Below are positions 22,561-53,593 of a stretch of 64,000 nt of DNA, in pieces. Each line of letters starts with the position of its first letter. Position 1 is the stretch's first letter. This DNA comes from Sphagnum magellanicum (lineage: Eukaryota; Streptophyta; Sphagnopsida; Sphagnales; Sphagnaceae), in NCBI GenBank assembly GCA_021904315.1, contig CM038916.1:17567897-17631896 (forward strand). Direction: 5' to 3'. A program made the translations under genes and the position numbers. Below the pieces are notes generated by a model that had not been told where the DNA came from, made no database searches, and was given only the letters and a program-made list of their open reading frames with translations.

Positions 22561-22574
22561 CCATGGGTCTTTGT

Positions 22575-23399: not shown

Positions 23400-23960
23400 T
23401 GTACAACCTCACTCTACTAAAGATTTTAAAAAATGGTCATGTTCAATTCTTTAGTTTTTCCATTGGTCTTTTAAAATTTTCACAAACCTACTAAACCTTA
23501 TTACACATTTAATTATTTTTTCATTCAAGATAGTTAAAAAAAACATTCAAACTATGAAAATTTAAATGCAATAGCCCCATTAGCCCTTTTTTTAAAAAAT
23601 TCAGCCTTACATACAACCTTATTAAATATTGCCATTTAAAAAATGGAAATGATGGAAAATTACCCAAATGATATTTTTCCATCATTCCCATTCTAGAGTT
23701 CTCACAAACCTACCAAACACTATTACATATTTAATTATTGTTTCATCCAAGATAACAAAGAAAATATATTCAAACCACCAAATGCAACAACCCCATTAGC
23801 TGAAAATTTTAATTTCGAGCCTACACACAACTATGTTATGTTGACCATTTTAAAAAGCAATTCTCCTTTAACATTTCCATTGGTCTTTTAGAGTTCTCGC
23901 AAACCTACCAAATCCTATTACACATTTAACTTTTATTTCACTCAAAATAACTTAATTTTG
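23400..23960 (+). repeat. Satellite-like tandem array, about three units near 200-230 bp
   Basis: Three successive blocks repeat 'tttccattggtctttta..', 'ttctcacaaacctaccaaa', 'tattacacatttaa', 'tttcattcaagata', 'gcaa.a.ccccattagc', with about 70-80 percent identity by eye. The array is degenerate and non-coding. Confidence 0.65.
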
Positions 23961-26740
23961 TTGAATGCAATTGTTTATAAATTTGTTAACTAGGTAGCAA
24001 GTACATGTTAGCACTATTGCACCTTTTTTACAATAAAAAAATGTTAGGGAAGTAAAAAAAACATTTTCCCATTGTTACATCAACAAAAATTGAAAATGCA
24101 ATATGCAATAATATTGCACAATCACATTCCTATAATTAGAGCTAATTGGAAGAATCTACAACCACATAACCCAAATGCACCAAGCAATGCATTATATGTA
24201 TATAGAAGAAATATAAACAAATAAAATTGAATATAGCAAAAATTGCACACAAGATGCAAATTATTTTGAAGTTGTTAAATTTTTTTTTGGTCACATCAAA
24301 AACTTGAAATCTCAACAAACAACCAACACATCATGGTATGTGCCTTATTGTATGTTCAAAAATGACAAAAAAACTCATAAATATTCCAATTTAATTGCAA
24401 TAAAAAAATGACTCTTATCACACAAAAAAATCACAACTCATCACATGTGTTTGAAGTAAACACAAGTGTGGTTTTGTCAATTTTACAATGTATAATATGT
24501 GGTGTTTATTAGGGCATATAACACAAAAAAATTTCAATTTGACACTAGGTAATGGCCAATGTATTGGATCTTTTTAAATGCATGTACATCAATGTTGCAA
24601 ATTCTGATTTTAAATGTTTTTAATGACTATAATAGTTTTCAAATTTTTGATCATGGATAAAAGAAAAGTTGTACATTTAGTTATAATGTAGGGGTTTGAT
24701 GCAAAATATGAGTTAGATTTGGTATTAATGTCAATATATAATCCAAAACATATTTTTAAAAGGTAAAAAAAAGTATTTAAAAGGTAATTTTGGTAATTAA
24801 TAAACCAAATACACAAAGGCCACATGTACATTGTAGTCATTGGTAAAGATTCTAACCTTGTTATTAATGGTTCCTCTTCTTGTGATTGCACCTTATAAGC
24901 ATCAAGACTCATAACCAACTTCATGTAATTTGAAATATATATATAATGGTCCCATGCATAATAATTAGAAGCAAACAATTTAATTATATCCATTCGTTGT
25001 CATTGATAACTTTGCATTCTTATTCATGATGAAGTTGTTTTAGGACCTTCAAAATTAACATGTTTTTCAAATTCATATCCAAATTATTCCAATTTGTCAA
25101 CATTGAAATAACCAAATGTGGCTAACATAATATCATTATCATCAATAAAACTTCTTCAATTAAGAAATCATCAATGGATTGCTTTTCTTCTCAGCAATCT
25201 ACCCTTACATTACTTGACCAAATATTTTAAATAATCATGACAAGCTTGTTTAAATTTTCAACTCTTAGCCTATTTGAATTATAGGCCTGTCAATGTTTTA
25301 GTTATATCAAATATGCATTCATTCTCAATATGAAACATGGGAATGTCAATAGTCAAAGGAATGCCACCAATTTGTCATGCAACAAAAAAAATGTTTGGAA
25401 CCCTTCATTTGGTGGTGTTTTCCACCAAGTTAGGGGCAATGACAATCGTTGGGCTTCACATGTAGGTGGCACAATAAAGATAGTTCATTTCTTAACAATG
25501 TTTGCAAAGTATTTTCATTTGAAACCATTGCTCCAAAAATATAATTTTTGTTGGGGTGAAAGCACATTAAAGTGGTCAAAAAATGTTGTCATGAATATTT
25601 TTTTAAAAATTATGTGACTTTCAACTTCCACCAGCCCAATATAAATTTTTTTTTCATATTTTATATTCAAAATAAAATAATTCAACTACCAAATAATGCA
25701 ATTGTCAAAAGAAACTACATTTTTTCATTGATAATAAATGATTAAATAGTATATTGTGAAAAATTAATACATGTAATCAATATACTACAAAATGAAAATA
25801 TATTCTTAGAATAATTCAAATAATTTTAACACTTGATGGAGTACTTAATCATATATTGAATATGAGTTGATTATACCATTTCAATTCCATATGAAAAGTT
25901 CCACTAATGTGATTTCACAAAAAAATATCGACAAGGTTTTCGATTCAAACAAACATAATTATGTTGGGAAAAAAATTGTTGAAAAATTACTTTCATTTGA
26001 AAGATAACAAGAATTATGTTAGAGGCATTTGTATCAAAATCCATTTTACTTGTTTATCAAAACACTAAATGAAATCAAAGAAATCCTACCCCCAAAATAA
26101 TACTAAATATACTAAAAATAAAGTACATTTTCATGCTTAAAATGGCCCCTTGTAGTGTGGTTTCACCCAATGGCAAGTGTTGGTGGTTCAATAAGATTAA
26201 TAATAGCAACATCAAGGAATTGAAAACAATCATTAAAAGTGGCATCAAAGTCGTATTGTTGTATTTTAATGCCATTATTTGTACCATGGTTCACCTTCAT
26301 GTACCTTTCCTATGAATATCACTTTGAAGCTATTAAAACATCGGTTTAATATTAATGTAAGCATGTTATTATTTTTTTGGCATTATAAACAATTGTATAT
26401 AATAGAAATGGAATCAAGATTGCCAAATCTTTTGCCTTCATGTGCATGCACAATGCTTGTCATTTTGACTCAAAATCCCACACTTCACAAATATGATGGT
26501 GTTAATTTTCTATTACTAAATTTCATGTTATCCATCCACACACTTATTGAAAATGCAATGTTTAAGGCATCAAAGAGTAGCTAATAAGCTTGGATTTGAT
26601 TCAAAATACATTGTTTCATTATGGGAAACATAATTTTGGTGATTGTTCTGCAAACTACCCATGCAAATGTGCATTCAATTCATTACATTGTACAATCCTA
26701 AGGTTTCTTGCCTTCCCATAGATTAAGGCCATGTCAATAT
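23961..26740. other. AT-rich region, no recognised gene
   Basis: The longest open frame is 127 codons on the minus strand (24610-24993). It contains short protein-like runs (NYYAWDHYIYISNYMKL) weakly reminiscent of a transposon gag, but not enough to call. A 95-codon plus-strand frame at 25330-25617 is also unrecognised. The region is probably decayed transposon DNA. Confidence 0.35.
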
Positions 26741-26754
26741 TCTAGGGTTCTTTC

Positions 26755-26910
26755 ACTACTATAAAATGTTGGTGCAATTCATTAGTCCATGTTCAATGGA
26801 CCGGTGAATTTTCTACATCCCCATTAGGTCCCATCCATTGGGACGAATGGAATTCACTCAAAATCTAGTGAAATCACTTGGTCTACATGGACATAGTTTG
26901 TTGTAGTGTT
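26755..26910 (+). repeat. Dispersed repeat, copy 1 of a pair
   Basis: About 145 bp shared with 29338-29485: 'gtgcaattcattagtcc', 'ttcaatggaccggtgaatt', 'cattaggtccca', 'gtgaaatcacttgg', 'tacatggacata'. Internal complementary words (ggaccggtgaatt / aattcac) suggest a foldback. Confidence 0.6.
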
Positions 26911-27784
26911 TGAAACATAATTCCATTATTAGCAACTTTGATTTTTGACTAGGGATTTCAATTTCCAATGACAAAGCTTGAATCACTTAGCATGCCTTCT
27001 TCATTATGTCCTTGCTTGATTTTTTCATCCATGTAAAATTATTTATTTTACAAAACAAATTGCATGGTTTTTAAACTAACCTCCCAAAAGCCAACACATA
27101 CATTTATATCATTGTAGACATATTGGCATGCCTTGCTAACTACATCACCAAAACATGTCCTTCAAGCCAAGGACTTGCAATTGTGAAAAGAACACATCTA
27201 TCTATAAATAAATAAATCAATGCAAGGGTGGACATATTGCCATCTTTATCTTTCACATAGGTAATCAACTTGTTTAACAAATTGTAAGATACCAATAAAT
27301 CCTTGACTTGTGTTATGATCATCACTTTTGCCATATCAATAGTTTCAAAAAGTGTCATGTAATCACATGGCAAGTTGCCCATCATGAATTGATGATTTAT
27401 TTATTGAACAAATGAGTCATGCCCAGATCTAGACATCCATATATCAAAAGATGTAGTTCTTAAGCATCCGAAGTAGGAAACATAGATTGTTCCATGGTTG
27501 TGGCCACTAATGAAAGGATGGCATGTTGAACTAGTTACTTTCAATTTGGAAGCATGACTTGACATTCTAACACATGATTAGGCACCTCAACCAATGACAC
27601 TCCACAATGGAAATCACCATATAACATTTGGAAACAAATAACAACTATTTGTTATTTGTCCTCCATGAAATCTTTTGCCCCACATCCTCCTTGTAAGGAA
27701 TATTACCCCTTATAAAGTGATTGATGATGGCCCTACATCACAAATTAATAAGCTTCATGGGTTCATTCCAAATTTGTGCAAGTT

Positions 27785-27985
27785 TTATTATTTAAACACA
27801 GACGTCATGCATTATTTAAACACATAAGTCATGTGCACAACTTTCATGTGTAAAAAACACAAATAAACATACAACATCTATGTCTAAACAATATGAGTAG
27901 GTATATGACATTTGTGTTTAAACAATGTGCATAACATCAATGTTCAAACAATATAAGTAGATGAATGACATATGTGTCTATTTCA
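27785..27985 (+). repeat. Degenerate tandem repeat
   Basis: Words such as 'ttatttaaacacat', 'gtcatgtg', 'ctaaacaatatgagtagg' and 'gacatttgtgt' recur at roughly 60-bp spacing. Confidence 0.45.
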
Positions 27986-28599
27986 TACAAACTTATGAAA
28001 AGAAATTTTCACATGATTATTATTGCCAAATTGTGACCCATGAAGTTTGTGATGTATACCTAGGATTGGTCTAATGTTTAAACTTTTCTTGCCACCCTTC
28101 TTTTGTTATAACATTTAAACATTGGGTATTTTCCACCTTGCCCAAACATCTACATGCTCAACCATCACATTTTTTTCATAGTAGTCCCATGGTCTTTACA
28201 TTTTATGTGATCACATTATCCTTTTCCTTATTAAACCACCGGAATGGTAGGCTAGGGCTTAATGGATCAATGGCTTGCATAGTTTAAGGAATTATAAACA
28301 ATATTGTATTTTTATTTATGGTAGACTTGTGTTATTATTGTAACATAAAGGGCAAGAAGGGTGTTGTCATTGTAAGATAGAATGAGGCTCGATTGGTTAT
28401 GATTAAAAAAAAGGGCAATTAAAATTAATTTAAGGTGTGAAAACTAGGACTGAACTTTGGAGGAGTTTTGATTTTGGATCATTAAAAGTTGTAATTTCTT
28501 TAAAGAAGTTCATGCTAGAATTAGGAGAAGATACTTGATGGAAAAAGACCATTTTTTATGACTTTCCTACTTGTTTTTTATTTATGTTTTCAATTTGAT

Positions 28600-28790
28600 A
28601 CTTTGAGCTCTTTTTTCAATTCATTACAAATATGGATTTTTATCATTTTGATATGTTTGTTCTTTATTTTTGTAAATTTTTTGTTGTTATAGATGTGATA
28701 GTGTCAATGACAATATGTTACAATACAAAACATGAATTAAAACATCATAAGAAAATTAATATTTACCATTTGACAACCATTGTTGGAAAT
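28600..28790 (+). repeat. Dispersed repeat, copy 1 (partner at 44560-44745)
   Basis: Shared order: 'caattcattacaaatatg', 'ttttgatcattttgatatgtttg', 'gatagtgtcaatga', 'caaaacatgaattaaaac', 'cataagaaaattaa'. Probably part of a decayed transposon; the open frame here (28632-28832) is not convincing. Confidence 0.6.
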
Positions 28791-28899
28791 GAATTTGGGG
28801 GTAAGAAATTCAGATTTTACAATGTTATTTAATTTTTTTCTTTTTTTGTTGTAAATATAAAAAATTTGTTGTGTGAATTTTCTTTCTTAATTATACGTA

Positions 28900-29340
28900 T
28901 TTAGAATTGGTTGAAAGGTTGTTAGGATTGAAAATCTGAACAAAACAATTGTTGTAAAAATTTGAATCTACAACAATCTATTGACCAGAGAAGAGTAATG
29001 GAATGGGGATGAATGTGAATCACATGGTGACTTGAAGTCTACAAAGACAATTAAATCAAATTCTAATTCAATTGAATGAAAAAGAAGATGTAGAAGCTGA
29101 ACCACAATTGTTGGATGATGTAACATAGTTTCAAATTTTAGAAAAAGTACAAAATATAATGTCAAAAATACCCAAGAGAAAAGAACACCTTGCAAGGTAC
29201 ATATGTCATCTATAACATTCATGGAACCTAGGGAAACATTTATTGGTAGAGCAATGAAATGACCCAATATCCAAAAGAGATTATCATTGAGGGTAATACG
29301 TTCCAAAGTTGAACCAAAATGATGGCTTGATACAAAACGT
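28900..29340. other. Unidentified region with a 126-codon minus-strand frame
   Basis: The frame 29348-28968 is long for DNA this AT-rich but is hydrophobic and has no recognised motif. It could be antisense to a decayed transposon gene on the plus strand. Confidence 0.25.
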
Positions 29341-29485
29341 GGGTGCAATTCATTAATCCTTATTCATTAGACCAATGAATTCACAATATACACATTAGGT
29401 CTTATTCACTAGGACTAATGAATCCACTTGAAATTCAATGAAATCACTTGGCATACAAGGACACATTTTATTGTAATGGTTACCC
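29338..29485 (+). repeat. Dispersed repeat, copy 2 of a pair
   Basis: Direct-orientation partner of 26755-26910, about 75 percent identical by eye. Confidence 0.6.
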
Positions 29486-29489
29486 TTAT

Positions 29490-31380
29490 AAACATGCAAC
29501 ATTGGGTACATCAAAAAACAAATATGAATCTGTCTTCTTGAGGACATGGTAATTTGTATAGATTTGAAGAGGTACTATGTGTTCATGAGGAAGTACATGA
29601 AGGGTTGGAGATAAGGTCAACATATAAAGGTTTGGTTGGTAATTTGTTTCACTTTAATACAATTAACCACTTGATGAATGGGAAGAAAAATTGGACAACA
29701 AGGAGGTTGAACAAGCGATACCACAATATGCAAATATTATATTTTAAACAAAATACAATAGTAGAAAAAACCCATTTTGCAACTTGTCCAATGCAACTAA
29801 AAATGTCATTTGCAACTACGTGTATGTTCAATACATATAATTTATTATTTTTATGTAGATCAAATTTTAGTTTACAACATATCAAGTAATGATACATACT
29901 TGATGAATTTGCATAAGTCTAATGTTTATTCATTCTTTTACATATGATGTTTTAATTTATTTTTAAAACTACAATAAAAAGTCATTAATTATTAAGCTAC
30001 ATGTAAATTTTATATATATAAATGAATGGTCATGTATGATGAATTTTTTTGTGCATATAAATATTAAAATCGAATTTGAAAATAGAATTTAATGAAAATT
30101 TGAAATGTAAGTCAAATTAATTACCTGTATGTTTAATACAAGAATAATTTATAATTTTTATGTAGATTTAATTTTTTTTTACACATATCAAGTAAGGATA
30201 CATAATTATTATTTTTGGAATTCTAATGTTTATCCTAATGTTGGATATTAGTTCTAATAATTTTTATAACTTTAATTTTACTAGCAAGATTTATATATTT
30301 ATTATTATATTATAATATAATTGGAATAATTAGTAAGGATATTTAATAAATGATTATATAATTGCAGCCATTATTATTATTTAAACATTACTATACTTAC
30401 AATTTTATTTTTCATGTATTTTTATTATTTAATGTTTATTACATTAATTCATAATAGTTATAACAAGTTAGGTAAATACAAACAATAATGGTTACATAAC
30501 TAGTCTAACCTAGCTACTACCTATAATATTATTAATAATGGTGTTGTTTTTATTCTAGCCAATTATTATATCGCTACATTATAATGATTATTGTAATACA
30601 AGTACCATTAAAAAAATCGAATTACTATATTTTAGTTAATTATTTGTTTTATGAAATCTTAATAAGAAGTTATAACATATTAATAAATTTTAAATATTGA
30701 ATAATTATTAGTAATTAACTATTTAATAGATAATAATAGTTAATCGCTCAAAATTTAAAATTTCAAAACTAATTTAAATTTCAAAAAACATTCAATCCTA
30801 ATTAATGTTAAATTAAATCAAATAGGATTTCATTTGTTAAGTGTCATGCAACCTAGGTCTAGCCTTAATATAAGCCTAAATTAAATGGCATATGTTTAGG
30901 GTTAGCTTAGGTTCCTAGGTTTAGACCAAACCTATGTTTAGGCTAGGTGGCCAATGTTTAATCACCACATGGCCTAACCTATGGATGTGAATGTGCCATG
31001 TGTCAACATTGTGACTATGCCATGTATCAACAAACCATTAGCTAGATGTTCAACTTACATAATTACAACTTAGTTAAAATTGCAATTGGATTTTTTGTTG
31101 ACATCATGCCCAATTAATAGATGAAGTTCATCCAATAGTTGAGAATAATTGAAAACAATTCTCGACTATAATGGTATGTAGTTTGGAACTAAAATGGTAA
31201 ATAGTGATTATTCTTGTGGTGTTGATACACTATTGACCATTTGAACTAGAATGTCATTTTTGACTTGTACTTGTCAACTTTTTTGGTTTACAGTTGGAAA
31301 AAACATTTCCCAGTTGCAAAAGAAACTTCGCAACTACACTTGTTCCTTTTAACTATGTTTTATAATTAAAATGTAGTTGG
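29490..31380. other. Very AT-rich region, no gene seen
   Basis: Composition is close to 75-80 percent AT between 29940 and 30800. 'cctaggtttag' words recur at 30850-30980. Nothing recognisable. Confidence 0.4.
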
Positions 31381-32869
31381 AAATGTAGTTGCAAATAAAA
31401 GGTTTTTCTACTAATGCAACTAGTTTTGTACCAACAAAATTTGTAGTGGTAAAACCTCATGAAGATGTACCTATACAATTAACCATAGGAATATTGTCAC
31501 ATGCAATAGTTATACCACACTGGTACCACCATATCCTAGAAGAGACCTTCTTAAACCCCTACGAGGTGCTACAATAACATTTGTGCAACTTGTAATATCA
31601 TATTTTAGGCCTTACAAGAGACCTCTAAAATATCATGAATATAAGAAAGATTCTGATATGGATGTTCATGTTAAAGTATTTAAAGTTACCATTGAAATTA
31701 ATAGTGAAATGATAAATGAGGAAATAACAAATATATTTAATTTCAAATTGAAGGATAATGCATCAGATTGGTGTAACAATTACATGAGAAATCATCCACA
31801 CTATAAATTTGTAGATCTAGAACATGCCTTTTGTAAACATTACATGATAGTACATAATGATGAACAAATGTACTTGCAACTCAAGAATTTAAAGCATGAG
31901 ACAACAAAAAGGGTGGAGGTGTACTATGAAAGATTATTAAAGCTAACAAATAGTTTATAACACAATTGATAGTTTCTTGACAATAATGTTTAGATTTGGA
32001 CTCCAATCTTATCTACGTATTGTTACAACATGGATGTAAAAGGACACTTTGCAACAACATAAGGAATCTACACTTTTGTGTGAAGAAGGTCTAGTTTTAC
32101 TTGAAGCACATAGTTCGTTATTAATACCACATACATCAATAACATGAGTGGTGGTCGTGGGGAACCAAGTAGTTGTGAAGCCTAACATGTACTATACAAA
32201 TTGCCATCATACAAACCATAACATGAGATGTGTAGGAATAAAAGAAGGAAGAACCCATTGTAGTTATTACTAAAGTGAATGCACAAGCTATTAAACCCCC
32301 AAGACCATTAAATTATCCTTGCCACATTTGTTGGATAGTAGGCAACAAATTAACCCAACTATCCCAAGTTTGGAAAAAATGCAAATTGTGTTCAAGGACA
32401 AAGGTGGAAAATTTGTGGAAAGCAAACCTATAGCCGAGGTAAAAGTGATTACTACCTTGGTTAACATGGTTGATGTCCATTTTGCAACTATTCAAAATAA
32501 GGCCATTGAAGAACATGTGTTCAAAGATTGAGAACCAAGGAAAAACAAAAATACAATAGACTAGGAAGTGGAAGAAAAGTTGAAAAAGTCCATCGTGGAA
32601 ACCATACAATAGATGCAAATAGTCACTCCACCATTGGAATTAATACCTTTTACTATAGTTGGAGAATGGACTACCAGTTGGGCAATGATGCCAAGTTTAG
32701 TTGATTTCAGAAAACCAACCAAGTCATAGGAAGTACTTTCTACCTCCCCAAACAAGTTCATATTTGCAGAACAGATCTTTCATGATGTCAATAAACATAT
32801 GTTAAAAACCAGTTACACATTGAATTATGGATAGCTATTCAAAATTGCACATGAACTCAAGACATTATG

Positions 32870-33060
32870 ATAAAAAATGTGTTTTGTAACTGGCCTTGCA
32901 ACTCAATTTCACAACGGACACTTGCAACTCACTATATTTATACTTCATGAGTTCTAACGGACAAGTTGCATGAGTTGCAAAGTTGCAACTCATCATATAT
33001 ACGGTGCAACTCATTGTAACTCAATTGCAATTTAGTTAAAATGATTCATTTTCCACTACT
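32870..33060 (+). repeat. Degenerate short repeat of the form (t)gcaactca
   Basis: 'ttgcaactca' and close variants recur at least eight times in 190 bp, inside the interruption of retroelement A. No product. Confidence 0.5.
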
Positions 33061-33274
33061 ATTCAACTCCATTATAACTACACCCATGATGTCATGTTGA
33101 TGTCATTAATTATCATCCATCTATTAAAATTTGACATGTGGCATTATGAAGATTTTTTGACATAAAAATTTTGAAATATTGATCTACATTGTCCATTATG
33201 ATTGTTAATAACGGTCCAAAATTGCGACACATGGCATAATAAAAATTTGCCACGTGGCATATTAATTGTATTTT

Positions 33275-33400
33275 GGATATATATATATATATATATATGG
33301 TAGGTCAAATGTAACCATACCTAGGACCTACCTACCTACCTAGGTAGAAAAATAAACTGTACTTACTTACCTAAGTAGGTAAGTAGGTAGGAAAACACAA
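33275..33400. repeat. AT dinucleotide run and ACCTA/TAGGT palindrome
   Basis: A TA/AT dinucleotide run (about 33278-33298) is followed by 'acctacctacctaggtag' and then 'cttacctaagtaggtaagtaggtagg', giving self-complementary arms. Confidence 0.6.
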
Positions 33401-35338
33401 GACTAAATGCATTCAAGAATAACCATGAAATTTTATTTTATGTTTTGCTTTTAGGTTAAACATTTTTCAACTCATCCCAAAATGGCACATGTATTTTAAT
33501 TTGAAAACATAAGAGAACAAACCTTCTTTATATAGTTTGTAACATGGGGTTCGAAGATAAAACATATAGGTTAAATCTTTTAGTTGTTCATTAGTTGCAA
33601 TTGAGTTGCAACTATAACACTTAAGCATTCAAGGCAAGCCAAATCCAAGGGGAGGGCTCCATATTTTTTCTATGTTTAAACAAAACTTGAACCTTTTTTG
33701 TTAGCACATCTAGTGCACTAAAAATCGTCAAAAATGGAATAAAATTAAGAAAGTTATGGCCTCTCAAAATAGAAGGGTTTATAATTCAAAAAACAAACCA
33801 CCAAATGTTACAAAAGCTGGTTCCCAAACGCCCATAGATTCCTTGTATGTTGTTTGTTTGTTATTAAAGTTTAAAGATAATTTGTAGAATTTTAGGTGGT
33901 GTTCCTATAACATTTTAAATTGCTTAGAATTAAAAAGAAATAAGAAAATTATGAAGTTTGAAAGTAGGAAGGGTCCAAAGAAAAAAAAAGGAAATAGAAT
34001 GTCTTTTGTAAGTTGGAAAACTTATTTATCTTATTATTATTCTTTCATTACTCATTTTCCTTTACACTTCAAAGATGATTAGAATTTGAAGTAGCGCTCT
34101 CACAACATTTTAAATCACTCAAAATGAAACACATATGATGAAGATATAAATAATTAATGAATATGTATCCTTATTAAGTTATAAGTAGTTGTTTTATAGT
34201 CATAACATAGTTGAACAATAGTACTTTAGTAGTGGTGCATTAATGGCCATACTAATCATATCAATGGGAATCATAATTAAAAACTAGATGCAAATGTATC
34301 CCATAATGGTTGGTGGAAATGTGGACATGTGGCATAATCAACATGTATGTGCATTGTACACTAATTGCAACATAGTTGTTATTTTAATGACACATTTATA
34401 ATAATTATAAAGTAGTTGCCACATATAACTACAATGCAACTCATAAAAAAATCAAACATGGTTGACTACATATGTATATATGATGTGTATAAATTACCAT
34501 ATAAAATACCTATTTTCAATTCACTTACAACTATAATACAACTAATTGATTTTTTGACGTGGCAATTTATTTATTAATGCATTGTATTTCTAAGGGGATA
34601 ATTGCATAGTAATTGTAATACTTAAGGGACAATTGCATAATAGTTGTATATGAATTGGTTTTTTAGTTTTAGTTGTAAGGTAATGTGGTTTTGGTAGATG
34701 CGATTTCTCATAGTGAGAAATACTTGTGGTAGAAATTAAACTTATAGATAGACCATAAATCTTTACTAAGACCATTATAGACAAAATAGTTAGCCTTGTA
34801 GTACCCAATATTGGCACTTTAATAGTTGTTATAAATAATCATATGGATGTTATACATGTGCAAATTGGGAAGAACACTATTGAGGATGCATTCTTAGATG
34901 GTGGGTCATGGACGAACATCATTATTGATTAATTGAAAATTAATCTACCTAAATTTAGACCTACACCCTATAATGTGTGGGATGGCATATCAAACTACAA
35001 TAGAACCAATAGGATTAATCATAGATCCAAAGATGTATGTGCATGGAATACCATACATAGTTACATTCATGGTCTTACACAACACTATTATAGATATTAA
35101 TTATTCCATGTTGTTGGGTAGACTATGGCTCAGGGATGATAAAATAACACATGATTGGGGAAATAACATGATTAAAATATAGGGAAATGGTAATGTCAAA
35201 ACCATAACAATGAAAAAACATTTGATGTGAAGAGACCAAAAGTATTACTTAGTTTTGACTATCAAAATGGCATCACATGGATAGGAGGAATGCACATATG
35301 AAAAAGAAAGATGAGGAAAAATATTTGATGTTTATTAA

Positions 35339-36159
35339 TGACGTGCTCCCAAGTCACGGGGTGAAACCCACTTGAGGGTTTCACAAAGTCAAGTTGCGGA
35401 AAGTTGAGACTTGGAGGCACGCTCCCGGCTTCCAACTCTAAAAAGGGGTAGAGGGTCGAGTTGGGAGCCCAGGGATTAGACTAGGAAAAGGGACTAACTT
35501 ATCTTGTGTGAATCTGCATCCAAAAACCAACCAAATCGGGTTAGTTTAGCATTCGGGACACCCTTGGGTGTTGGGACTTGCCACGGGCACTTGGACACAC
35601 AAGACTCACCACGGCCTGGACTCGGGGGAAGCCACCACCTTCCCCCATATAATATTCTCTGCGGCTGGTCGCCGAGGCTACATCCAAATGGCACATTTTG
35701 TTGGGACTCCCGAAATGGAGTCCCGGAACTGTCCCGGCTGCACTCCCGGAACTTTGAACGGCCATAACTCCTCGCCCCAAGCTCGGATCGGGACGAGTCT
35801 TGAATCAAAGTTGTAGCTCTCGTCAAGAGCTTTCCAACGCCATGTTGCACTCTACAAGGAGACGTCAGGAAAAGGTCGATTCCCGACTTTTAGTGGTCGG
35901 GAGTCAAATTGCTAGTTTGACTCCCGACCTTTCTTTTGCCCATAACTTGGGCTACAAATGTCCGAATGGCCAATGCGAGGCCATTTTCGATATCTACGTT
36001 TCAAGACCTTTTCAATGACACCAAGAACGCTTCAATGCGAGGTGTTTTGAGCCTTGCTGTCGAGCCCTAAACATTCGGGAGTCCCAGAGGACTCCAAACC
36101 TCCAACTTTTCCAAATGTTGGGCTTCACCCCCACACTTGGCCAAAGTGGGGTTGCGACA
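35339..36159 (+). mobile_element. Solo LTR copy 2 (TG...CA, TSD attaa)
   Basis: 821 bp from tgacgtgctccc to gttgcgaca, flanked by attaa at 35334-35338 and 36160-36164. The ends and the 5-bp duplication are what LTR retrotransposon integration leaves, and the absence of an internal region marks it as a solo LTR. It contains a TATA-like ccatataata near 35645 and a 14-bp-stem hairpin at 35895-35929. GC content is well above the flanks. The many open frames on both strands inside it are not genes. Confidence 0.92.
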
Positions 36160-36289
36160 ATTAATGAAATTGAAGTATTTTTTATCAATACCATTCATTA
36201 TCCCAAAAAATTGTAAACTCATTTGTAGTGAATATAATTTACAATGAGAGAAGGATACAAAGACCAATCTAGTCACCTTGGTGTGACTA

Positions 36290-38270
36290 ATAATGCCAGT
36301 TTGGAACCCCATAACCCTTTCTCTTTCTTCTAGGCTTGGTTCATCCCATGTGGTTGAAGCATGACGATACACCAGGCCTGGTCCATTTCCCTAAAAGGCG
36401 TGTGCTCCTGGGTGTTGCAACCCTAGCTTTGGGCCCGAGACCAAAGACAAAGGGGTTGTAAGGTTGCGGGCCAAGAAGAAGCCCGGGAGCTAATGTAAGA
36501 GGAAGCCCGAGAACTAAGGCAAGAGCAAGCCCGAGAGTCACATCACACTCCCGGGAGTGTAAGAAAGTGTGAGGGAGTGTGAGGGAGTGAACACTCACAC
36601 TCCCAAGGCAATTCCCACTTTGGGAGATGGAGTCCTGGTGGACTCCCGAAACTTTAGAGAGCAATTGCAGGGGTCAAACCTCAATGTCTTGTGGCGTTCT
36701 TTATATCATTAGAAAGCTCTTGAAGTGTAAATATCTAGAATGGGCTTACATTGTTCATTTGAATATATGAAACACAAGTTATGGCCAAAAGAAGGGTCGG
36801 GAGTCGAATTCCCGGGAGTCTGCCAGTTTTGACTCCCGACCACTAAAAGTCAGGAATCGACCTGAAATACTTAGCTGCAGAGAACATGCGACATACCATT
36901 GGAAAGTTCTCGACGAGATCTACAACTTTGCTTCAGACCGCATCGCGATCCGAGGTCTACTCGCAAAGTTATGGGGCTCCAAAATTTTGGGAGTCCCATT
37001 TGGTGCGATTTCGGGACTCCCACTCGGGAGTCCCGGGAAAAATAGCCATTTGGATGTAGCCTCCATGGAGAGCTACAGAGTATACTATAAGGGGGAAGGT
37101 GGTGGCTTCCCCCAAGTCCGGGCCGTGGGGAGTCTTGTGTGTCCGTGTTGCCCGTGGCTCGTCTTAGCACCAAGGGTGCTCCAACTTTGCACTAACCACT
37201 TTGTGTGGGTTGTGTGCAGGCCCGTGTGAGTGACTAAAGCTTGTCAACTCTTCCTAGTCTATCCCGAGACTTCTAGCACACCCCTCTCACCCCCCTCTAG
37301 TGCTAGAAGTCGGAAACGTGCTCCAAGTTCCAATTCCTTCCGCATTGCCACATACTTGGACCCTAAAGTGGGTCCACTAGGAACTTGGGAGCGCGTCACT
37401 GGGAAGGAAATAAAGGTGGGCCAACCACCTCCTGGTTTTCCTATTGTATTCGCAAAAAACCAAGGAGGTTTTTTTTTACCTTGTAACTGGTTAGTAGGAG
37501 CTTTGATCATCCAATATATGAGAAACCTACAGGTTGGGGTCTTTGATGGTGTATCTTAGAGCCAATTACAGAACTAATAATGGTGCAAGGTTGGTCCACC
37601 AGTTGCGCATGTAGTGCACATAGGAATTACGTTGTGTTGCATCGAATAGAAATGGTTATTTAAGGTAATGTTTGACTAGCGTGTAGTGTTCTTGGACTTT
37701 CTCTCTTTGGTTAAGCTGAGAAAGGGTGTTATCAATTACATAACCAAGTGTAGGAGAAATGGATTGAGCCTAAGTGATCAACTGTACCATGTCCGTGAAG
37801 AGACCAGATCTTGTGTCATTCAAGCCTTTTCCAAATCCAGTTACTGAAAATCCTTAACACTCCCAACTCGAAATGATGAGGTCCACGGGGCCAAGTACTT
37901 CCATATGCTTCTTCTGAATTAGTTGTATGTTAAAGAGAAAAAAAGTGAAATTGGCCTTCCGTGCGGTGGTTGCAAATTGTTGTGGAAATCTGGCTATGAG
38001 CTCCATCATTTTTTATGTCGCCACTTGCTTTGCAATAGGATCAATGGCTACATAGAAATACTTTCAAACCACCATCCCTGATTGTAGTAGGGCTTTAAGA
38101 CCTGTACCAATACCACCAAAGAGCTCTAGTAAAGTATTCCCCTCCTTAGGCGGTGTCCATGTGATTAGTTAACGAAATATTGGTTTAATCGATTCACCAT
38201 GGCTTTCCATGTTCTCAAAATTAGACAAAGTTTTGACCAAGGGCTCGTGGGTTACTTTGAACTTTTGTAA
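36290..38270 (-). pseudogene. C5 cytosine-DNA methyltransferase domain within retroelement B
   Basis: The minus strand shows conserved C5-MTase motifs in order. Motif I (SAM binding) is LLELFGGIGTGLKALL at about 38130-38085. Motif IV is GPVDLIISSWEC, whose catalytic cysteine codon is 37859-37857; the next codon, where CQG is expected, is TAA. It is followed by GFGKGLNDTRSGLFTDMV. Motif VI is seen as GYVIDN (about 37745-37728), E replaced by D. A C-terminal block beyond the inserted LTR reads EPSLEERERVMGFQTG (about 36345-36302). At least six in-frame stops mean the copy is dead. C5-MTases transfer methyl groups from SAM to cytosine. The subfamily (DNMT3-, CMT- or DNMT1-like) is not settled. 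Confidence 0.85.
36413..37398 (-). mobile_element. Solo LTR copy 3, reverse orientation (TSD ctggg)
   Basis: 986 bp whose plus-strand ends are tgttgcaaccc and gggagcgcgtca, the reverse complements of the family termini. Target duplication ctggg at 36408-36412 and 37399-37403. It sits inside the methyltransferase region of retroelement B: the coding pattern resumes on the other side without loss. It carries the family hairpin (36795-36841) and the TATA-like site near 37080-37095. It is longer than its siblings, mostly through extra sequence at 36440-36620. Confidence 0.92.
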
Positions 38271-41230
38271 AACCTCTCGTCCATGTTGAATGTTAGTAGG
38301 ACCACCCTCAAGGTTTCAATAGTTTAGGCGTAAGTTGTCTCCTCTTCATCTCTTTTTATCCACTCGTGGCTAACTTGTTAAATGTAGGAAATAATGTGTG
38401 CTTCCTTAACCATACAATGGTGAGCCACAGGACTATGGTTCCCATGTAAATCAAGGGGTATGTATCCCAGGTGGTGACCATTAGTCTCCCAATCTATTCG
38501 GTAGTTTGCATGCTTAAACTAGTTGTCAATTGTGAAATTTGGTGGAAACATGGCCTCTTGCCTAATGAACACATCGTAACTGGTGGCATTGGTGACTAAA
38601 CATTTAACATAAAGGCAAAGCTCTTGATCTGTACTTTCATTAAAATTAAGTGCAATCAAATCCAAGTTTTTCCCAAGTACCTCCTCTACATTCCCACTAG
38701 AGATGTGAATTTGCCACATAGATTTCCATAATTTGGAGTCGAACATGCCCATCTTCTTGGCAAATTGAACTCCAAGAATCACTGGTCGGGCACCTATATC
38801 AAGAAGTACCATTCTGGGTGTATGTCCTTCCACCTGGATTGCTGACTTAATATTATTGATAATGGCAACTCCGGTGGCGATAGAAGTTTTCTCACTAGGC
38901 ACCACCTTCAAAAATGAGTGGGAGACTTTGTGGAAAAAATAGTTATCCACAAGGCCTTTGCTAAATAACAAATCCACAAGTGAGGTGTTCTTAGTTCCCT
39001 TTTGATATGTGAATGTAGAATAAAAAATAAGAGAGCCCATTAGTTTAGCCATGCTAGAACTAGTGACCAAATTATAAACGCCATCTACAACATGTGAGCC
39101 AATCGAGTGTTTCTCCAAGGTGTTGGATGGGACCCCTGTAGCATGTGGATTAGGGATTGGTAGAGGACTTGATGTAGTGTTCATGGTATCTTTTAGTATT
39201 GCAATTATGTCCCTGGTGTTTAGTTTCAAATCTTGAAAATTAAATAACGGTGTACTCACAAGCTTTTGCGCCACTTCACGCATTTAAAGTTGACACTCCA
39301 TAAGTTAATTAGTGGAAAATTGTGTGTTTTCCTAATGTACATGTATTCCTAGGACATAAGAATTGATGCCCTAACAACTTGTGGTGTTGTAATTACCTCC
39401 CCCCTCACTAACAAGGTGTGTTTTTCTTCTGTGTTGAGAAGATGAAAAGATTGTGGCATGATTGCTCGAACTCCTCTAGCCTTAGTAATAGGGCTTAGAT
39501 TAGATACGAGTCCATCAGTCTGAATTACCAGCCTAGTGGCAAAAACTTTAGGTGCCACATTACCCTCTTGTGCCGTGAAATAGGAAGGGCAAAAAGAAGT
39601 GGCAAATTCTAGTGTGAGCCTAAAATTGTTTGCACTAGAAAAAACATACTCCCCAACCATGGCATCATGTGAGAGGCCATAAAACAACCTAGGAGGTCCT
39701 TTTCGTGATCCCAAACCCTATATTGTTGGGCATGATTAGCTGGTTGGGAAGACTTGCCTTTTAAATTAGCAAGTTAGGCCTCAATGATTCGAGTTTATTT
39801 TGTAGAGTTTGAACTTGAGCAGCATGGGCTTGAAGCACCTCGCTTTTGTTAGCATTGTGCTCTTTCTTCTTAACATTCTTACTAGAATTACCTTTGGTGG
39901 GGAAAGCCTGAGTGGAAGCTTGAGGTGCCTTGGCAAAACAATAATCCTTTGGTTGAGGGGCAGTGGAAGATGTTGGCAAATTTTGGCATGGTAATTGAAG
40001 TTGCTTTTGTTACGGGAACTTAGCAAAACAAATCGCTTCCTGATGTCCCTTTTTCCCACAATAATCACAAAAGATTTCCTCTAAAGGAATATTGCATTCA
40101 CTAGCTTTATGGGCAAGATTGCCACAATAGTTGCAAGAAGGTAGGATGGGTGAAGGTAAGTGCACCATTTTAGCCCTTGAAGAAGAATGTGATGATATGG
40201 TTAGCGTAGCTGGTGGAGGCTGAGGCCTTGAACATGATGGAGGCCTCATAGTACTAACCTCATAGTGTGCATGAACCAGTTCCAACTTTTCAAAAATGTT
40301 GTACACATCCAACAAAGTGTACAAGTTTCCAAATTCAGCAAAAACCCGTTATAAAACTTGCGGATGGAGTGTTGGAGTACCTTCCAATGAATGAAGATAT
40401 CGATGGGCAACTTTCAAGTCTATGATGCTTTGATTATCCTCTTTAAGCTTGAAAAACCTCTTGAAAAACATCTTGAAGGTTTCATCCTTATGCCGAATGA
40501 AAGTGGGGAGTTGCAAAAAAATTTTAGAACTCTTGACCAAAAATTCTAGCTCAAGAAATTGAAAGAACTCCCCCAGTGGATCAGTAAAAGCTAGTGCATC
40601 GATGGTGGGAGGAATGTTTGCGGCAGTAACAATGAATTGTTGAAGAGAAAAGTTTACTCAAGTAGGTACTAGATCTAGATTATTGGGCATAATCCCATGA
40701 TGTGCAGTGGCAGCTTGTAGTGCAACTTGAAAGGTGATGGTGATGGCGATGTCTGTGACATAAACTAGATTAGGGATCTAGGTGACGCCCAAAATCCTCG
40801 GAGAATGTTGCTCGTAGACATCCAGTGTTTCATAATGCACATAACGAGCTAGTTATTTGAATGCGAACGCTTCGAAATAATTAGCGCCATACTTGAGCTC
40901 CAATTCACAAACCACAATTGAGAAAGTTGCCTTGAACTCCTTCAACAAAATGGTATTTGGCCTTCCGTTGAATTTTTCAATTCTTCCAAAGGAATTATTG
41001 ACCTCCATGGTATATATGGGTGTAAAGGTCAAAGCTTGCAGCGGAATATATGGTGATGGTGTGAAAGCAAGTGTGGCAGTAAGTGTACCCCACTGATTAA
41101 CCCTTCAAATGGACTTTGATGTACTATTGATGAAATGTAACTTGAACTTAAATTCCTAGTAGGAGTTGTACTAATTGACAGTAATGTTATAGACATTTGA
41201 TGGTATTGTCGTGAAGATCGTGAATTCAAA

Positions 41231-42760
41231 GAAATCGGCTCAAATGATTATGTGTTGCTTCATAGCTACTACCTTCGTTCTGGGTAAACGGTAGTGCTCT
41301 CATCATCCGAGGACATGGTGTTGTCCCATGCCCTAAAATTTTGTAGCAATACAAAACACTAACTATAAAGTTTTAACACAATTTATAGTTTGAAGAATAA
41401 GGTGCGTTAACGAAAATGAACAATAACGGATGGACGTTGGTGGATGGACAGAAAGGGCTAGACGAACGAAAGTCAAATGAATGATCGTCCATTGGACGGA
41501 TGTTGAACAAATAGATGTTGAACAGACATATGTCAAATGGACATATGTTGAACATAGCGTTGCAAATTGCCCAAAAACTCTACAACGATGGCATGCAGAA
41601 TTTTTTTTTTTGTTTTTACTTAACATTACAATTGGTTGTTGCAATTTCAAGAGTCTTCAAAGTTTCCTCCACCGCCTCCTATGTTTTTATGAAAGAAAAA
41701 AAAAAAGGAAAAAAAAAAAACTTCATTTACTCCAGGATACATCACTCCCCCATTTGGTTTTGCTTTTCCCAGCTCCTTCGATCTTGACTTTGTTGGTTAG
41801 CATAGGTGTAATAGCACAAACTCCCTTCAACAGTAGTAACATTAACAACAACAACAACACCAACAACAAAAGAAACCCAATAACTTAAAACCAAAAAAAA
41901 TTGGCACTTTCAACATTAAATGATAAAGAAATTTTTTTTAAGAATTAAATTGCAAAGAAGGAAATAAAACATAGTGTATGTAAATGGTGGCCGTGTAATA
42001 ACCACTATCAGCATCTAAAAATCCAGTTTAACTATGGAAGAAACTCTCCCTAACAAAGGAGTTTTAGAAAAACTAACAAGAGAAGGGAGGAGCTTGGCCT
42101 TTTATACAACCATCAACAAGTTGAAATTTAACAAGCCATAACCCTAAAACATCTAATAGCGTACATTAATCTAAGAACGTACATTAACCCTAAAAGACAT
42201 GATTAGCATGCCCATAAATGGTCGTCATGTATGAGACCATGCATACGGGCATGACAATACCCAATTCATATTGGAATTTATAATTAGCCTTTTTAACTAA
42301 GCCATTGGCCATTTTGACCAAGCTTACTTAATTAGCCCTATTGATTGAGTGTAATGAGTGGCCTTATTAACCTAGGCATTTGCCAATTTGACTAGGTGGC
42401 ATTTTAAAATCCAATTTGACAAAATGTCCGATTTGATTAATTGTCAGATTAATCACTCTAGTCAAATTTATTAATCAAAAGATATTCATTATGTACTGTG
42501 TGTACCTTGCCCTCAATTTGAAACTTTGAGATATCAAAAGTACCACGGATGCCCCTAAAAAACCACACTGATAATCTCGCACTCATGTTTTCACCCGTGA
42601 TAAATTGCAGGAGTGTCTCCAACACCTAAATCCATTACCCAAAAACAACACCAACAATGACAACAAAACAAGGTTCAGAAAGTTTGAGACAGTTTAGAGC
42701 GCTTATAATTTCTTGAATCAGAGCTCAAATGCACATTAGTTTCTGTAAGTGGTTGCAAAT
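41231..42760. other. Flank of retroelement B, no gene seen
   Basis: Mixed AT-rich sequence with an A-rich tract (about 41694-41720) and short 'atgttgaaca' repeats at 41500-41555. It may include the element's upstream untranslated part or a worn LTR; no TG...CA pair with a target duplication was found. Confidence 0.35.
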
Positions 42761-42849
42761 TTTCCCAAAGCTTGCTTCTTCAGCTCTTCTTCACAAGCCT
42801 TTGGCCTCTAGTAAAAAGTACATGTCCTCTAATAAAAAAAACCTATTTA

Positions 42850-44310
42850 GTCAACATGGTTAGTTTTGAAAAAATAGGAATTCTAGTAGTGGATGCTCCA
42901 AAAACAAGCAGATCACATGCATCACAATTTGAATCCATAGTGGAGCCACATGTTAAACGTGAAAAAAAATAATCTTCATTTCCAAAACTAGAAGTTCATG
43001 TGTGGTCCTCACCTAGAGCACAATTTCTAGTAGCATAATAACATGTAAATACACAACATGTGCAAGCAATTGAAGGAGAGGAAAATCCATCATCATCCAT
43101 GGGCTTTAATGAAGGAGCCTAGTTTGGCTTTTTTAGGAATGTTGTATTATCCATTAATACATCTAGAGGAAGTACTCCTATAATTAAAATTCCATACACT
43201 TTTGGATCTTTGAGTTAGAAGGCAAAAGAACATTTAAAGTAGCTAGAATGTTTTAGCACATAGCACATTACAACAAAAACATGGAGAAGATGATGATTGA
43301 GATGTTAGGATTCAAATCATAGCAACAACATGAAATTATATATGACTAAAAGATGTCAATATGTAATATAGGAGATGAAGAGTCTAAAACATAAGTTGTG
43401 ATCTCATGAGATATAGACCAAAAAGTTGTCAAGTAGACCAAGGAACAATAACTAAACAAGCTATAGATGGAATTCTTTTAAGTAGGTTAGAGGAAACACA
43501 TTATGGAATAGTAGTTGATTCCATGGATAAGATAAGGGTGCAAAGAGACTTGTTGAAGCAAAATCAATAGAAGGAGGATTTAAAATATTGGGTTTTGAAG
43601 AACAAGAAGATGGTTTTGAAGCCCAATGTGTAGCATTGCAATGGGACAAAAACAACTTTGATCATAGCATGGTGGAGTAGGAAACAAAAAGTTTGTGACT
43701 AAAAGTTATCCAGATTGTTGTAAACGAGGAAAATGAGGCATTGCTCTCAAAGTATTAGACTTGGGCTAATTACAACCAAACAATCTAGGGACTCCAACAT
43801 GATGCCAAATGAATGCAAATAGTCATGGATAATTTAAAAAGCATGCAACCATACGCTTCAAAACACATGCTTAAAAAGTATGATAGTTTACTAATGTATA
43901 ATACTATCATTGAGACTAAACATTAATCTATGGAACTTGTGGCATCAAACATCAATGTTTGGTGGCATTTACATGATGTTTTGTAAAAGGATGTATAGAC
44001 TTTGTTTGACAAACACAAAGCTTATGAAACAAGGTACATGAGAAAGTTCAAAGCATACAAGGAAGTTTTTCCTAATTTTGTTTATGAATACCTTATTCTA
44101 ACCCCAGAAGATAGTCTAATAGAGTCAAACAAGGGGTAATATCAAGCAGGTCGTAATGGAAAAACACTATAAGTATAATCACATGCACTTGAAGAAATGA
44201 AGGGTGTAGGTGGATTAGAAGATGTTTTTGCTAAGTAAGAAGATGTAGAGACAATAGACCAATCTATAGACGTATCCATAATGGTTCATGAGTAATTGCA
44301 AAAAAAAAAA
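42850..44310 (+). pseudogene. Decayed coding region of unknown family, stops only
   Basis: From about 43561 to 44140 a single frame reads through roughly 190 codons interrupted by eight or so stops but no frameshift. Protein-like runs include ILGFEEQEDGFEAQCVALQW, IVVNEENEALLSKY, SMELVASNINVWWHLHDV and EVFPNFVYEYLILTPEDSL. The upstream part (about 42850-43240) shows the same pattern (IIKIPYTFGSL). Nearly every stop is explained by one C-to-T or G-to-A change from CAA, CAG, CGA or TGG. I do not recognise the family; a transposon-encoded protein is most likely. Confidence 0.55.
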
Positions 44311-44559
44311 AAACCCAACTTAAAGTATAACTTTTATTAAGTACATGACAACTTATATTTCATTTCAATTTGCCGATTATGATATGACCATTGCAATAAG
44401 GGGGATTTTTATAAAAAGAAAGTGATAATGGTCATATAAAAACCATTAAGGAAGCATAACAATAATTGCATTAGCAAATTCCACAATTTTAGCCTCATAC
44501 TAAGACATTACCTATAATAAATGTGGAATAATCAACATGTAGTTGTTTGTTATTTATTT

Positions 44560-44745
44560 TTTCAATTCTAGATTGTTTTGAATTATATTTTCAATTCATT
44601 ATAGATATGATTTTGATCATTTTGATATGTTTGATTATCTATTTTTGTAGATTTGTTGTTGTTACAAATATGATAGTGTCAATGAAAATATGTTAAAATA
44701 TAAAGTATGAATTAAAACGACATAAGAAAATTAACATTTACTATA
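44560..44745 (+). repeat. Dispersed repeat, copy 2 (partner at 28600-28790)
   Basis: Same orientation and word order as the partner, about 80 percent identical by eye. Confidence 0.6.
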
Positions 44746-46300
44746 AGTAATAGTCAAAGAATGATTTTTCCCATGATGCACTATGTAAATATAGTATATT
44801 TCCTATAGTTAGATAGTAAGAGTATCCTAAAATTTTCCTCAAAATTAATCACTTTTGGTTCACACATTATAGATTACATTGTGGAATTATTCAAAACATT
44901 GGCAAAATGCTAGTTAATAAACCCAAGGCCCAAAAATAATGGACGACACAATTTGTTTAAATATGACTTAGGAAAAATTATAATAACATAATCTACACAA
45001 CTATTGATTTAAAATGTCAACCTATGATTGGCAATCAAATAGCCTATTATGAGTCATGATTCATTTGAATTTGTCTCAAATTCATGGGATTTAGTTGTTT
45101 TCTTTGTTATTGATAGTTATTGGTTTGGTGGGCAACACCTTCAAATCCAATAGTCTCTAATCCTAACCTTGTTATATTAAGCTTGGAACTCTACAATGTT
45201 TTTCAAAAATGACGGTAAGCCGATATATGTTCACCACTTGTGTCAAAGTAATGGCCCAATGGGTGGAGCCCTCCCTAGCTAGAGGTCATGGGCTTCGATC
45301 ACACCAACAATTAAACTATCGAGCCATGTGGGGATAAATATATTTTGGAATGGAGTCAATGACCCAATTGAAGTTTGCAATGTTTCTAGGCTCTTAGTTG
45401 ATTTGTGGACCACTTGTTGTCCATGAAATGGTTGTTCGATTAGTAAATGGTGTCCATTTTTGCCAACCAATGTTTTCATACCAACATGGATAGAATAGAG
45501 TGTGGCATGTGCAACAACTTGTGTGTGTCATTGATAGTTGAAGAAGACATTTGAGATGGTGATGATGTTTACAATTAAATACCCAATTGGTAAAGTCTTT
45601 CATGCCCACATGTTTTCTAACATATGGCACACAATTCCTTACTTTTAATGAAATTGAGTACTTCCAAATAAGTAGCTACACTCTTTGGTGATTTCGTACC
45701 CCACATGAAGTTGGTTTTAAAAAAATTCCTCCAAATCCACCGTAAGCCATTATTCCCATCAATGGCCATTTAAAATCCCTTGTCCACCCATGTGGCAATC
45801 AACATATCTAGTAAGTTAATAACGAAAACAATGAGTTAAACATTCCATTTTGTCCTTGGTCAACTTCAATTTGTGAATTTCTTCATATATTGGTTCAAAA
45901 ATCTAACTTTTCAAACATTAATTGATGTAATTGTGGTGACAATGGGTTCAAAGAGATTGTTTGGGAATGCAATTTGTGTCCCCCCCCTATTGCTCCCCTT
46001 TTGATTGGATTAATGGAAGGTTTGGTGATAGGACAATGTAAATTTAATGCCTTTGTTGGATGAGCACCTTCATCACGTCCATATCAAGTTGGACTTATGG
46101 TTTCACAATTGTGGCTCTTGGAGTTGGTTGTGCACTAGGACTAAAATTACTAATTAGGTCATGAAAACATTTTCATTTTGGTTGTTCCATACAATGGGAA
46201 ATTATTTGCAAGACCAAGGTATGCAAATTATTATTCCATTTTTACAAGTTGATGAATATTGTGCTTGATGAAGTTCATTTGTAGAACTTAAAATTTCAAG
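44746..46300. other. AT-rich region, possible upstream part of a hAT remnant
   Basis: No frame here matches a known protein by eye. Two overlapping minus-strand frames (45279-45630) are unrecognised. The hAT transposase tail downstream implies that earlier transposase exons once lay here. Confidence 0.35.
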
Positions 46301-52786: not shown

Positions 52787-53588
52787 TGACGCACTCCCAA
52801 GTTTCTAGTTAGACCCAAAATGGGTCTAAATTACTCACACAGCAGAATTGTGAGGAACTCGGGGCATGTTCTCAACTCTCAACACTAGAAAGGGTAAAGG
52901 GGCGTGTTGAAGCTCTGAGATGGGACTAGGAAGAGTGACAAGCTTTAAATATTTATTTGAACCTGCATCAAACCAACCAACAAGTTGGTTAATTCATTTT
53001 CTAAAGCACCTTTGGTGCTAGGACAAGCCATGGGCAACTCTAGACTCACACAATTCACCACGGCTGGGATTCGGGGGAAGCCACCACTTTCCCCCATATA
53101 ATATTCTCTACGTTTCTTTGCGGCACCTACATCCGAATGGCTTTTTGTCCTGGGACTCTCAAGGAGGAGTCCTGAAACTTTGCGAGTTCATAGTTTTTTG
53201 TTCAAACCTCCGATCAGGATGAAGTCTAAAGTAAACTTGTAGCTCTCCTCGAGAGCTTTCCAATAGTGTATTGCACTCCACTTGCATGCACCAGGGTCGG
53301 GTTGATTCTCGACTCTATGTGGTCGGAAGTTAAACTGCTAGTTTGATTATCGGCCCTTCTTTTTGCCATAACTTGTGTTGCAAATGTTTAAATGGTTCAT
53401 GCGAGCCCTTTTCAACATCTACACTTCTTCGATAGCTTTCCACTGATATAAAGAACACCCCAATGCGAGGTGTTTTGACCCTTACAATCGAACTCTAAAG
53501 TTTCAGGAGTTCTAGAGGACTACAAGTCCCAATTTCGAGAGTGTGAGTTTCATCCTCACACACACTCTCTCAAAGTAGGGTTGTGACA
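52787..53588 (+). mobile_element. Solo LTR copy 4 (TG...CA, TSD aatta)
   Basis: 802 bp from tgacgcactccc to gttgtgaca, flanked by aatta at 52782-52786 and 53589-53593. It aligns with copy 2 along its length. It contains the TATA-like ccatataata near 53093 and a weakened version of the family hairpin (53321-53355). It is isolated in AT-rich DNA. Confidence 0.92.
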
Positions 53589-53593
53589 AATTA

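Follow-up and report, generated by a model that had tools for sequence, protein, structure and literature searches.

Here we describe Gypsy-type retrotransposons of the moss Sphagnum magellanicum that encode their own C5 cytosine DNA methyltransferase. The copy at the centre of this study lies in a stretch of 64,000 nucleotides (GenBank assembly GCA_021904315.1, contig CM038916.1, forward-strand positions 17,567,897 to 17,631,896), called here the window, and coordinates without a locus name refer to it. Its siblings elsewhere in the genome, members of a large family, encode in a single polyprotein gag, two CCHC knuckles, a protease, a DNMT3-type methyltransferase, reverse transcriptase (RT), RNase H, a DDE integrase and, at the C terminus, a PHD finger, a domain that in most cases reads histones; of this anatomy we are nearly certain. 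As the best explanation of the data, the account given below as a whole, anatomy together with the proposed life cycle, receives from us a probability of about 0.8. The element is real and was correctly read in an original prediction made from the window alone, whose interpretation as a whole is supported; it is larger than was thought, and possibly integrates in a new way.

The joining of the methyltransferase to gag and protease, and its translation as part of the polyprotein, had been proposed from the damaged window copy and are borne out by open frames in siblings. The genome searched comprises 438,994,042 bases in 31 contigs, and contains at least 124 matches to PF00145 (DNA_methylase), host genes included (123 of 387 candidates scored); L021 and L022, two profile-matching host loci, look DRM-like by eye. 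Family 1, to which the window copy belongs, was sampled as 12 loci of about 10 kb chosen for their open frames and hence not drawn at random from the 124 matches; from 92 further listed places, four were taken at 10 kb and three as 3.2-kb loci (L006-L008). The methyltransferase continues into the RT part in 12 of 12 family-1 loci; in one of them (L031) gag and protease are mostly missing. Locus L009 is a single open frame of 2379 codons with gag, two CCHC knuckles (by pattern), protease (residues 728-824, at the gag-asp_proteas cut-off of 28.2 bits), methyltransferase (1025-1112), RT (1487-1641), RNase H, H2C2, the rve integrase (2027-2120) and the PHD finger (2330-2374, E 5.4e-11). L010 is likewise open from protease through PHD, with gag outside that frame, and in proteins from other sources gag, protease and methyltransferase are united (P0002), as are methyltransferase, RT and RNase H (P0004). 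The Pol order of protease, RT, RNase H and rve integrase is found in L009 and L010, and also across the pieces of L017, a member of the second family described below, in which the protease is below the Pfam report level. The PHD finger (PF00628) scores 42.8 and 44.8 bits in L009 and L010 and 35.2 bits in L017 against a cut-off of 24, and its nearest solved relatives include KMT2D/KMT2C, KDM5, ATXR5 and CHD4. Pfam reported no chromodomain for L009 or L010 at E 0.05.

The window region is itself nested and broken (an insert at 36413-37398 and a related repeat at 35339-36160), as would be expected if methyltransferase, gag and protease were unrelated neighbours brought together by nested insertions. 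However, the methyltransferase is joined to RT at every family-1 locus sampled, and the same plan recurs in family 2, in metagenome proteins and in the bacterial-database contig L042, so that the chance of this explanation is virtually nil; mere adjacency of methyltransferase and gag is refuted by the same evidence.

The window copy is a dead, 3'-truncated Gypsy-type retrotransposon at 42256-36264 on the minus strand (Table 1). The contents of the element originally placed at 41230-36290 stand, gag, two CCHC knuckles, a retropepsin-like block and the methyltransferase all being present on the minus strand, but both borders are moved by comparison with siblings. The new start agrees with the starts of siblings bearing target-site duplications, segment A opening with TGTCATGCCCG, and segment A of the window copy is 74% identical to that of sibling L015 over 318 columns. 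The alignable portion of the leader is 41036-41408, and the gag start at 41008 was chosen by eye. The gag frame has nine stops between 39757 and 41230. The methyltransferase motifs quoted in the original prediction, LLELFGGIGTGLKALL, GPVDLIISSWEC(stop)GFS, GYVIDN and EERERVMGFQTG, were found as quoted, and the profile check it proposed gave a significant PF00145 match in one frame-piece out of the nine searched (25.9 bits, the cut-off being 22). The solved structures nearest to the methyltransferase piece are DNMT3A (E 3.4e-5) and DNMT3B (E 2e-4). Part 1 of the domain is 67-76% identical to proteins P0001-P0004, and part 2 is 90.6-92.6% identical in nucleotides to eight siblings (L009-L016); the two are separated by the insert, which has the length and the duplicated ctggg reported for it. 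No match in Pfam or PDB was obtained for the protease block of this copy, or in Pfam for its gag (nine frame-pieces searched).

Past 36264 the RT, RNase H, integrase and PHD parts are gone from the window copy. The minus strand of 22000-36200 and 41230-46000, searched in three frames, has no Pfam family at E <= 1, and a displaced RT or integrase further along the window was accordingly rejected for the minus strand of 22000-36200; Rfam and tRNA searches gave no match. The copy is dead because nine stops fall in 38150-37399 alone and because gag/protease and methyltransferase are in different frames. Compared with sibling L024 on both strands, it has C-to-T changes at 56/176 CG, 115/306 CHG and 218/1542 CHH sites, and A-to-G changes at 149/2380. 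This decay suggests that the copy was long methylated in plant-type contexts, and does not indicate which enzyme was responsible.

Table 1. Parts of the retrotransposon copy in the window
Feature	Position	Strand	Evidence or remark
Terminal segment A, 5' end of the copy	41942..42256	-	starts TGTCATGCCCGTATGC at 42256; TATAAAA inside
5' untranslated leader, partly decayed	41009..41941	-	82% identity over 374 columns to the L015 leader
gag, decayed	39757..41008	-	alignment to sibling gag and translation
CCHC knuckle 1, CNYCGNLAHKASEC	40094..40135	-	read in translation
CCHC knuckle 2, CDYCGKKGHQEAIC	40028..40069	-	read in translation; zf-CCHC E 0.28, below cut-off
Open frame of 254 amino acids with aspartic protease remnant LLDIGARPVILG	38519..39283	-	homologous L009 stretch matches gag-asp_proteas, E 2.9e-6
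C5 methyltransferase part 1, motifs I, IV, VI, VIII	37399..38150	-	PF00145 E 8.5e-6; nine stops
Insert with TG..CA ends, solo-LTR-like, within the methyltransferase	36413..37398	.	986 bp; CCCAG at 37399-37403 and 36408-36412
C5 methyltransferase part 2, EERERVMGF, motif IX/X side	36264..36412	-	copy stops here

A second family consists of three loci (L017, L018 and L019), with a methyltransferase 42% identical to that of family 1 over 324 residues. L017 holds in four open pieces a CCHC knuckle, methyltransferase, RT, RNase H, rve and a PHD finger (E 1.2e-8). In all three copies the sequence TAG CAA CTA separates methyltransferase and RT (L017:5827 in the first), and a lone stop stands at the same boundary in L042, as TAG CAA TCA (L042:3489); this 9209-bp contig with 51-bp overlapping ends contains the element from inside gag to PHD and is 46% identical to family 2. 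CAR-YYA following UAG is a leaky stop context in tobamoviruses. Programmed readthrough of the UAG is possible, the two further stops in that frame of L017 being taken as probable ordinary damage. The methyltransferase, lying upstream of a possibly leaky UAG, would in that case be made alongside Gag and protease and outnumber RT and integrase.

Terminal repeats of these elements are split. The 3' side of family-1 copies reads A-body-(CTGGGGGGGG)-B-GC-A-B in six of twelve and A-body-B in the other six, and identical long terminal repeats (LTRs) at both ends of an inserted copy were not found in either form. The B-GC-A junction is GACAGCTGTC in family 1, family 2 and L042; the genome contains 27 occurrences of its 18-base family-1 form and none of the reversed form. 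Copies end TGTC..GACA, and these TG..CA ends are accompanied by a target duplication within the range of 4-6 bp: exactly 4 bp are duplicated in nine of ten copies with both flanks readable, compared with 2 of 90 pairings of flanks from different copies. The duplication is present in copies of the B-A-B form (L012, L014, L015, L017) and in those with a single B (L018, L024, L026, L027, L030). The end of B never precedes the start of A (0 of 10 copies).

Since B begins at the polypurine tract and A ends at the leader start, we infer that B-GC-A is the LTR produced by reverse transcription, running from the polypurine tract through the whole of A. Two such LTRs would meet in a circle at the A|B junction, and the integrase would cut the palindrome GACA-GC-TGTC inside the LTR. 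Two-LTR circles would yield A-body-B-GC-A-B, and one-LTR circles perhaps A-body-B, with later recombination between the B repeats as a further source. We put forward this integration of cut circles tentatively, with odds just short of even. de Mendoza et al. call the same A-body-B-A-B order a DIRS arrangement and describe it for Klebsormidium (PMC5890265, main text), and a DIRS/PAT-like cycle, in which RNA ends are bridged by the internal B1-A2 region and a DDE integrase replaces the tyrosine recombinase, could account for it. We regard such a cycle as rather unlikely: B1 starts just past the G-rich tract CTGGGGGGGG and A ends at the leader start, both as expected of LTR borders that a polypurine tract and a primer site define; the ends are TG..CA with 4-bp duplications; and L009, L010 and L017 contain rve and H2C2, with no tyrosine recombinase (PF00589) at E <= 0.05. 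As to the A-body-B copies, there is about an even chance that they arose from A-body-B-A-B copies by recombination between the two B, direct repeats of 178 bp lying 490 bp apart, in which case target duplications would survive, and are no second product of integration. The A-body-B form is, however, as frequent as its counterpart in family 1, makes up one of three copies in family 2 (L018), and includes L024, the copy with the longest open frame.

Profile and predicted fold both identify the element methyltransferase as a DNMT3-type enzyme, with motifs in unrearranged order, the catalytic cysteine kept and DNMT3 as best match. The 50 rows listed by the VIA-align structure comparison contain no DRM, DNMT1 or CMT, which does not exclude such kinship. 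The dN/dS ratio of the domain is 0.14, and, as read from the sequences, purifying selection on it is shown. In an alignment of 65 rows the catalytic cysteine is kept in 64, the motif VI glutamate in 64 and the motif VI asparagine in 65. The residue preceding the cysteine varies: it is proline in 34 rows, glutamate in 28, aspartate in two and alanine in one. All 15 family-1 copies read have ECQ (14 as GWECQ, and L006 with a stop for W), and family 2 retains GWPCQGHS. Glutamate and proline were exchanged at least six times on the tree (54 rows, omitting ten without a simple motif and the one with alanine), which is not the pattern of a drifting dead site.

A selected DNA-modifying function of the methyltransferase is, in our judgment, likely. 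More specifically, the enzyme, produced with Gag and protease, may methylate the element's own new complementary DNA (cDNA), which would thereby enter the nucleus in the methylated state of the host; the PHD finger would anchor integrase, methyltransferase or both on the tails of histone H3, in a role akin to that of the ADD domain in DNMT3. We consider self-methylation of cDNA in particular a reasonable conjecture with somewhat less than an even chance. Alternatively, the domain might be kept for a non-catalytic job, such as binding nucleic acid within the particle or serving as a scaffold in the polyprotein, with copies methylated by the host alone. The invariant ECQ of family 1 would fit this, as would the decay of the window copy in contexts used by plant host enzymes and the lack of activity in yeast of the Klebsormidium enzyme (PMC5890265, main text). 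Against it stand the near-complete retention of the catalytic residues, the repeated glutamate/proline exchange and the PCQ of family 2, which make a non-catalytic role improbable, although worth keeping in view.

Several observations weigh against the proposed life cycle. CG, CHG and CHH decay is also expected from ordinary plant silencing; the PHD finger is a poor discriminator of function; the glutamate before the catalytic cysteine in family 1 could weaken catalysis; and the inactivity of the Klebsormidium enzyme in yeast is called inconclusive by its authors (PMC5890265, main text). As for integration, L028 (one of ten copies) has no target duplication, single-B copies can equally stem from recombination after insertion, and no tRNA-type primer site (TGG..) stands straight after A, other primers not having been searched for. 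The most comprehensive version, a Gypsy group found throughout the green lineage that pairs a writer (DNMT3-type) with a reader (PHD), methylates its own cDNA before insertion and inserts circularly permuted copies from circles cut in mid-LTR, is a speculative one that we think less probable than its opposite.

At E <= 0.001 a profile search recovered 375 relatives, of which 120 were listed; the organisms named among the matches listed are Calypogeia fissa, Sphagnum troendelagicum, S. compactum, Marchantia polymorpha and one Obscuribacterales metagenome-assembled genome (MAG). The Calypogeia protein P0040 combines protease and methyltransferase, with the family-1 motif WECQGFS. A search with the long polyprotein as query gave 33 proteins of 1330-3109 amino acids, among them Haematococcus lacustris (P0143/P0155), Monoraphidium neglectum (P0150) and a Chrzof1 model (P0144), which we take to be Chromochloris zofingiensis. 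A PHD finger is present in 28 of the 33; PF00145 is recorded for ten in the precomputed Pfam list, and the profile of our methyltransferase alignment (A1) matches all 33. RT precedes the methyltransferase in 27 of 27 long relatives with a readable RT motif; Pfam agrees on this order in P0125, P0143 and P0150, and RNase H precedes the methyltransferase in P0144. The methyltransferase comes before RT in L009, L010, L017, L042 and P0004. The chlorophyte proteins P0143, P0144 and P0150 resemble the moss element in uniting RNase H, methyltransferase, integrase and PHD, to which P0143 and P0150 add RT and protease, but the methyltransferase of the chlorophyte proteins is located between RNase H and integrase, whereas that of bryophyte-type polyproteins is between protease and RT. 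The PHD finger stays towards the C end in both the algal type (P0125-P0156) and the bryophyte type, labels that rest on few species-named proteins among 156. Two single algal polyproteins have an additional domain, Tudor-like at residues 2352-2407 of P0150 (PF21743, below its cut-off) and a G-patch at residues 737-780 of P0144.

The methyltransferase tree (65 rows, quick method) splits 31 rows, comprising both moss families, Calypogeia and P0124, from the other 34, which are 31 long polyproteins and three short proteins, at SH-aLRT 100; the window copy falls within family 1. One capture followed by relocation of the domain may explain the two positions, as may two captures. A bacterial origin was rejected on the basis of a GTDB scan that gave two loci, a weak 35% Streptomyces match and L042, itself a methyltransferase-bearing retroelement. 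L042 is filed under an uncultured Synechococcales (cyanobacterial) MAG and is probably mis-binned contamination. A viral origin was likewise rejected, IMG/VR scans with the window methyltransferase and P0002 giving no relative; with A1, one 29% match over part of the domain was obtained (L044 8001-8375).

Other features of the window include one repeat family with four copies (35339-36160, 36413-37398, 45-617 and 52880-53590), 69-88% identical to the copy at L011:1763-2595; one of them, with TG..CA ends, is within the methyltransferase, and one lies inverted beside the truncated end of the element. Exon-like open frames at 4488-6129 (+) presumably belong to a plant START/cyclase-type protein, and one at 10675-11115 (-) presumably to a plant polygalacturonase-like glycoside hydrolase, both judged by eye; a 165-amino-acid open frame at 31463-31960 (+) resembles, by eye, the gag of another retroelement.

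Retroelements with a host-type silencing enzyme have so far been described from one charophyte and dinoflagellates. Elements of the same kind now appear, at the level of sequence, in a moss, liverworts and chlorophytes, extending the known Klebsormidium type to bryophytes, with a PHD finger and a model of integration. Thus land plants do have such transposons, contrary to a printed statement that denies their presence in land plants, such as tracheophytes (PMC6338049). The Sphagnum annotation dropped gene models with more than 30% in transposable element domains, and the words methyltransferase, retrotransposon, methylation, Gypsy and DNMT do not occur in the main text of that paper (Healey et al. 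2023, PMC9946827). In titles and abstract openings we found no other account of methyltransferase-bearing retroelements of bryophytes or chlorophytes, or of PHD-bearing ones of this kind, a coverage that leaves most subscription papers and all preprints outside and does not prove novelty. Since writer and PHD finger are often paired and the writer occupies two positions, comparison can test what the methylation is for. Combined with true 4-bp duplications, the split repeats lead to a specific model, open to checking, for a puzzle that stood unsolved in 2018.

Among known systems, DNMT3A/3B/3C resemble the element enzyme as best profile and fold match and in the unrearranged order of motifs I to X; identity in structure alignments is about 18-24%, and CQ after the catalytic cysteine of the element is CN in these enzymes. 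The reader domain of DNMT3 is ADD, in place of which the element has a PHD finger, in cis with the methyltransferase only through the polyprotein. Chromoviruses are Gypsy elements with a chromodomain at the C end after the integrase; they likewise carry a chromatin-reader-like domain in this position, which in the moss element is the PHD finger. SymbioDIRS-Dnmt3 and SymbioLINE-Dnmt, as presented in the main text of PMC5890265, also combine a retroelement with a C5 methyltransferase, and domain order varies between the two SymbioDIRS forms, but they use a DIRS tyrosine recombinase or LINE machinery, unlike the rve integrase of the moss element. Closest is KnitGypsy-Dnmt3 of Klebsormidium nitens (de Mendoza et al. 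2018, PMC5890265), and the original prediction of kinship with the elements of that paper was right in kind. According to its main text, KnitGypsy-Dnmt3 shares with the moss element the Gypsy Pol polyprotein, an unrearranged Dnmt3-type domain under purifying selection and repeats in the DIRS-like order A-coding-B-A-B; the moss elements thus have both the Dnmt3-type domain in a Gypsy polyprotein and the split repeats of this type, the two being compared by description only. The moss element has a PHD finger, a word that does not occur in that main text, which does not cover the domain figure, so that absence from KnitGypsy is not established. The moss elements differ from the published description in their host, a moss and not an alga, in forming two families, in the UAG between methyltransferase and RT of family 2, and in the 4-bp duplications and palindromic junction shown for them here.

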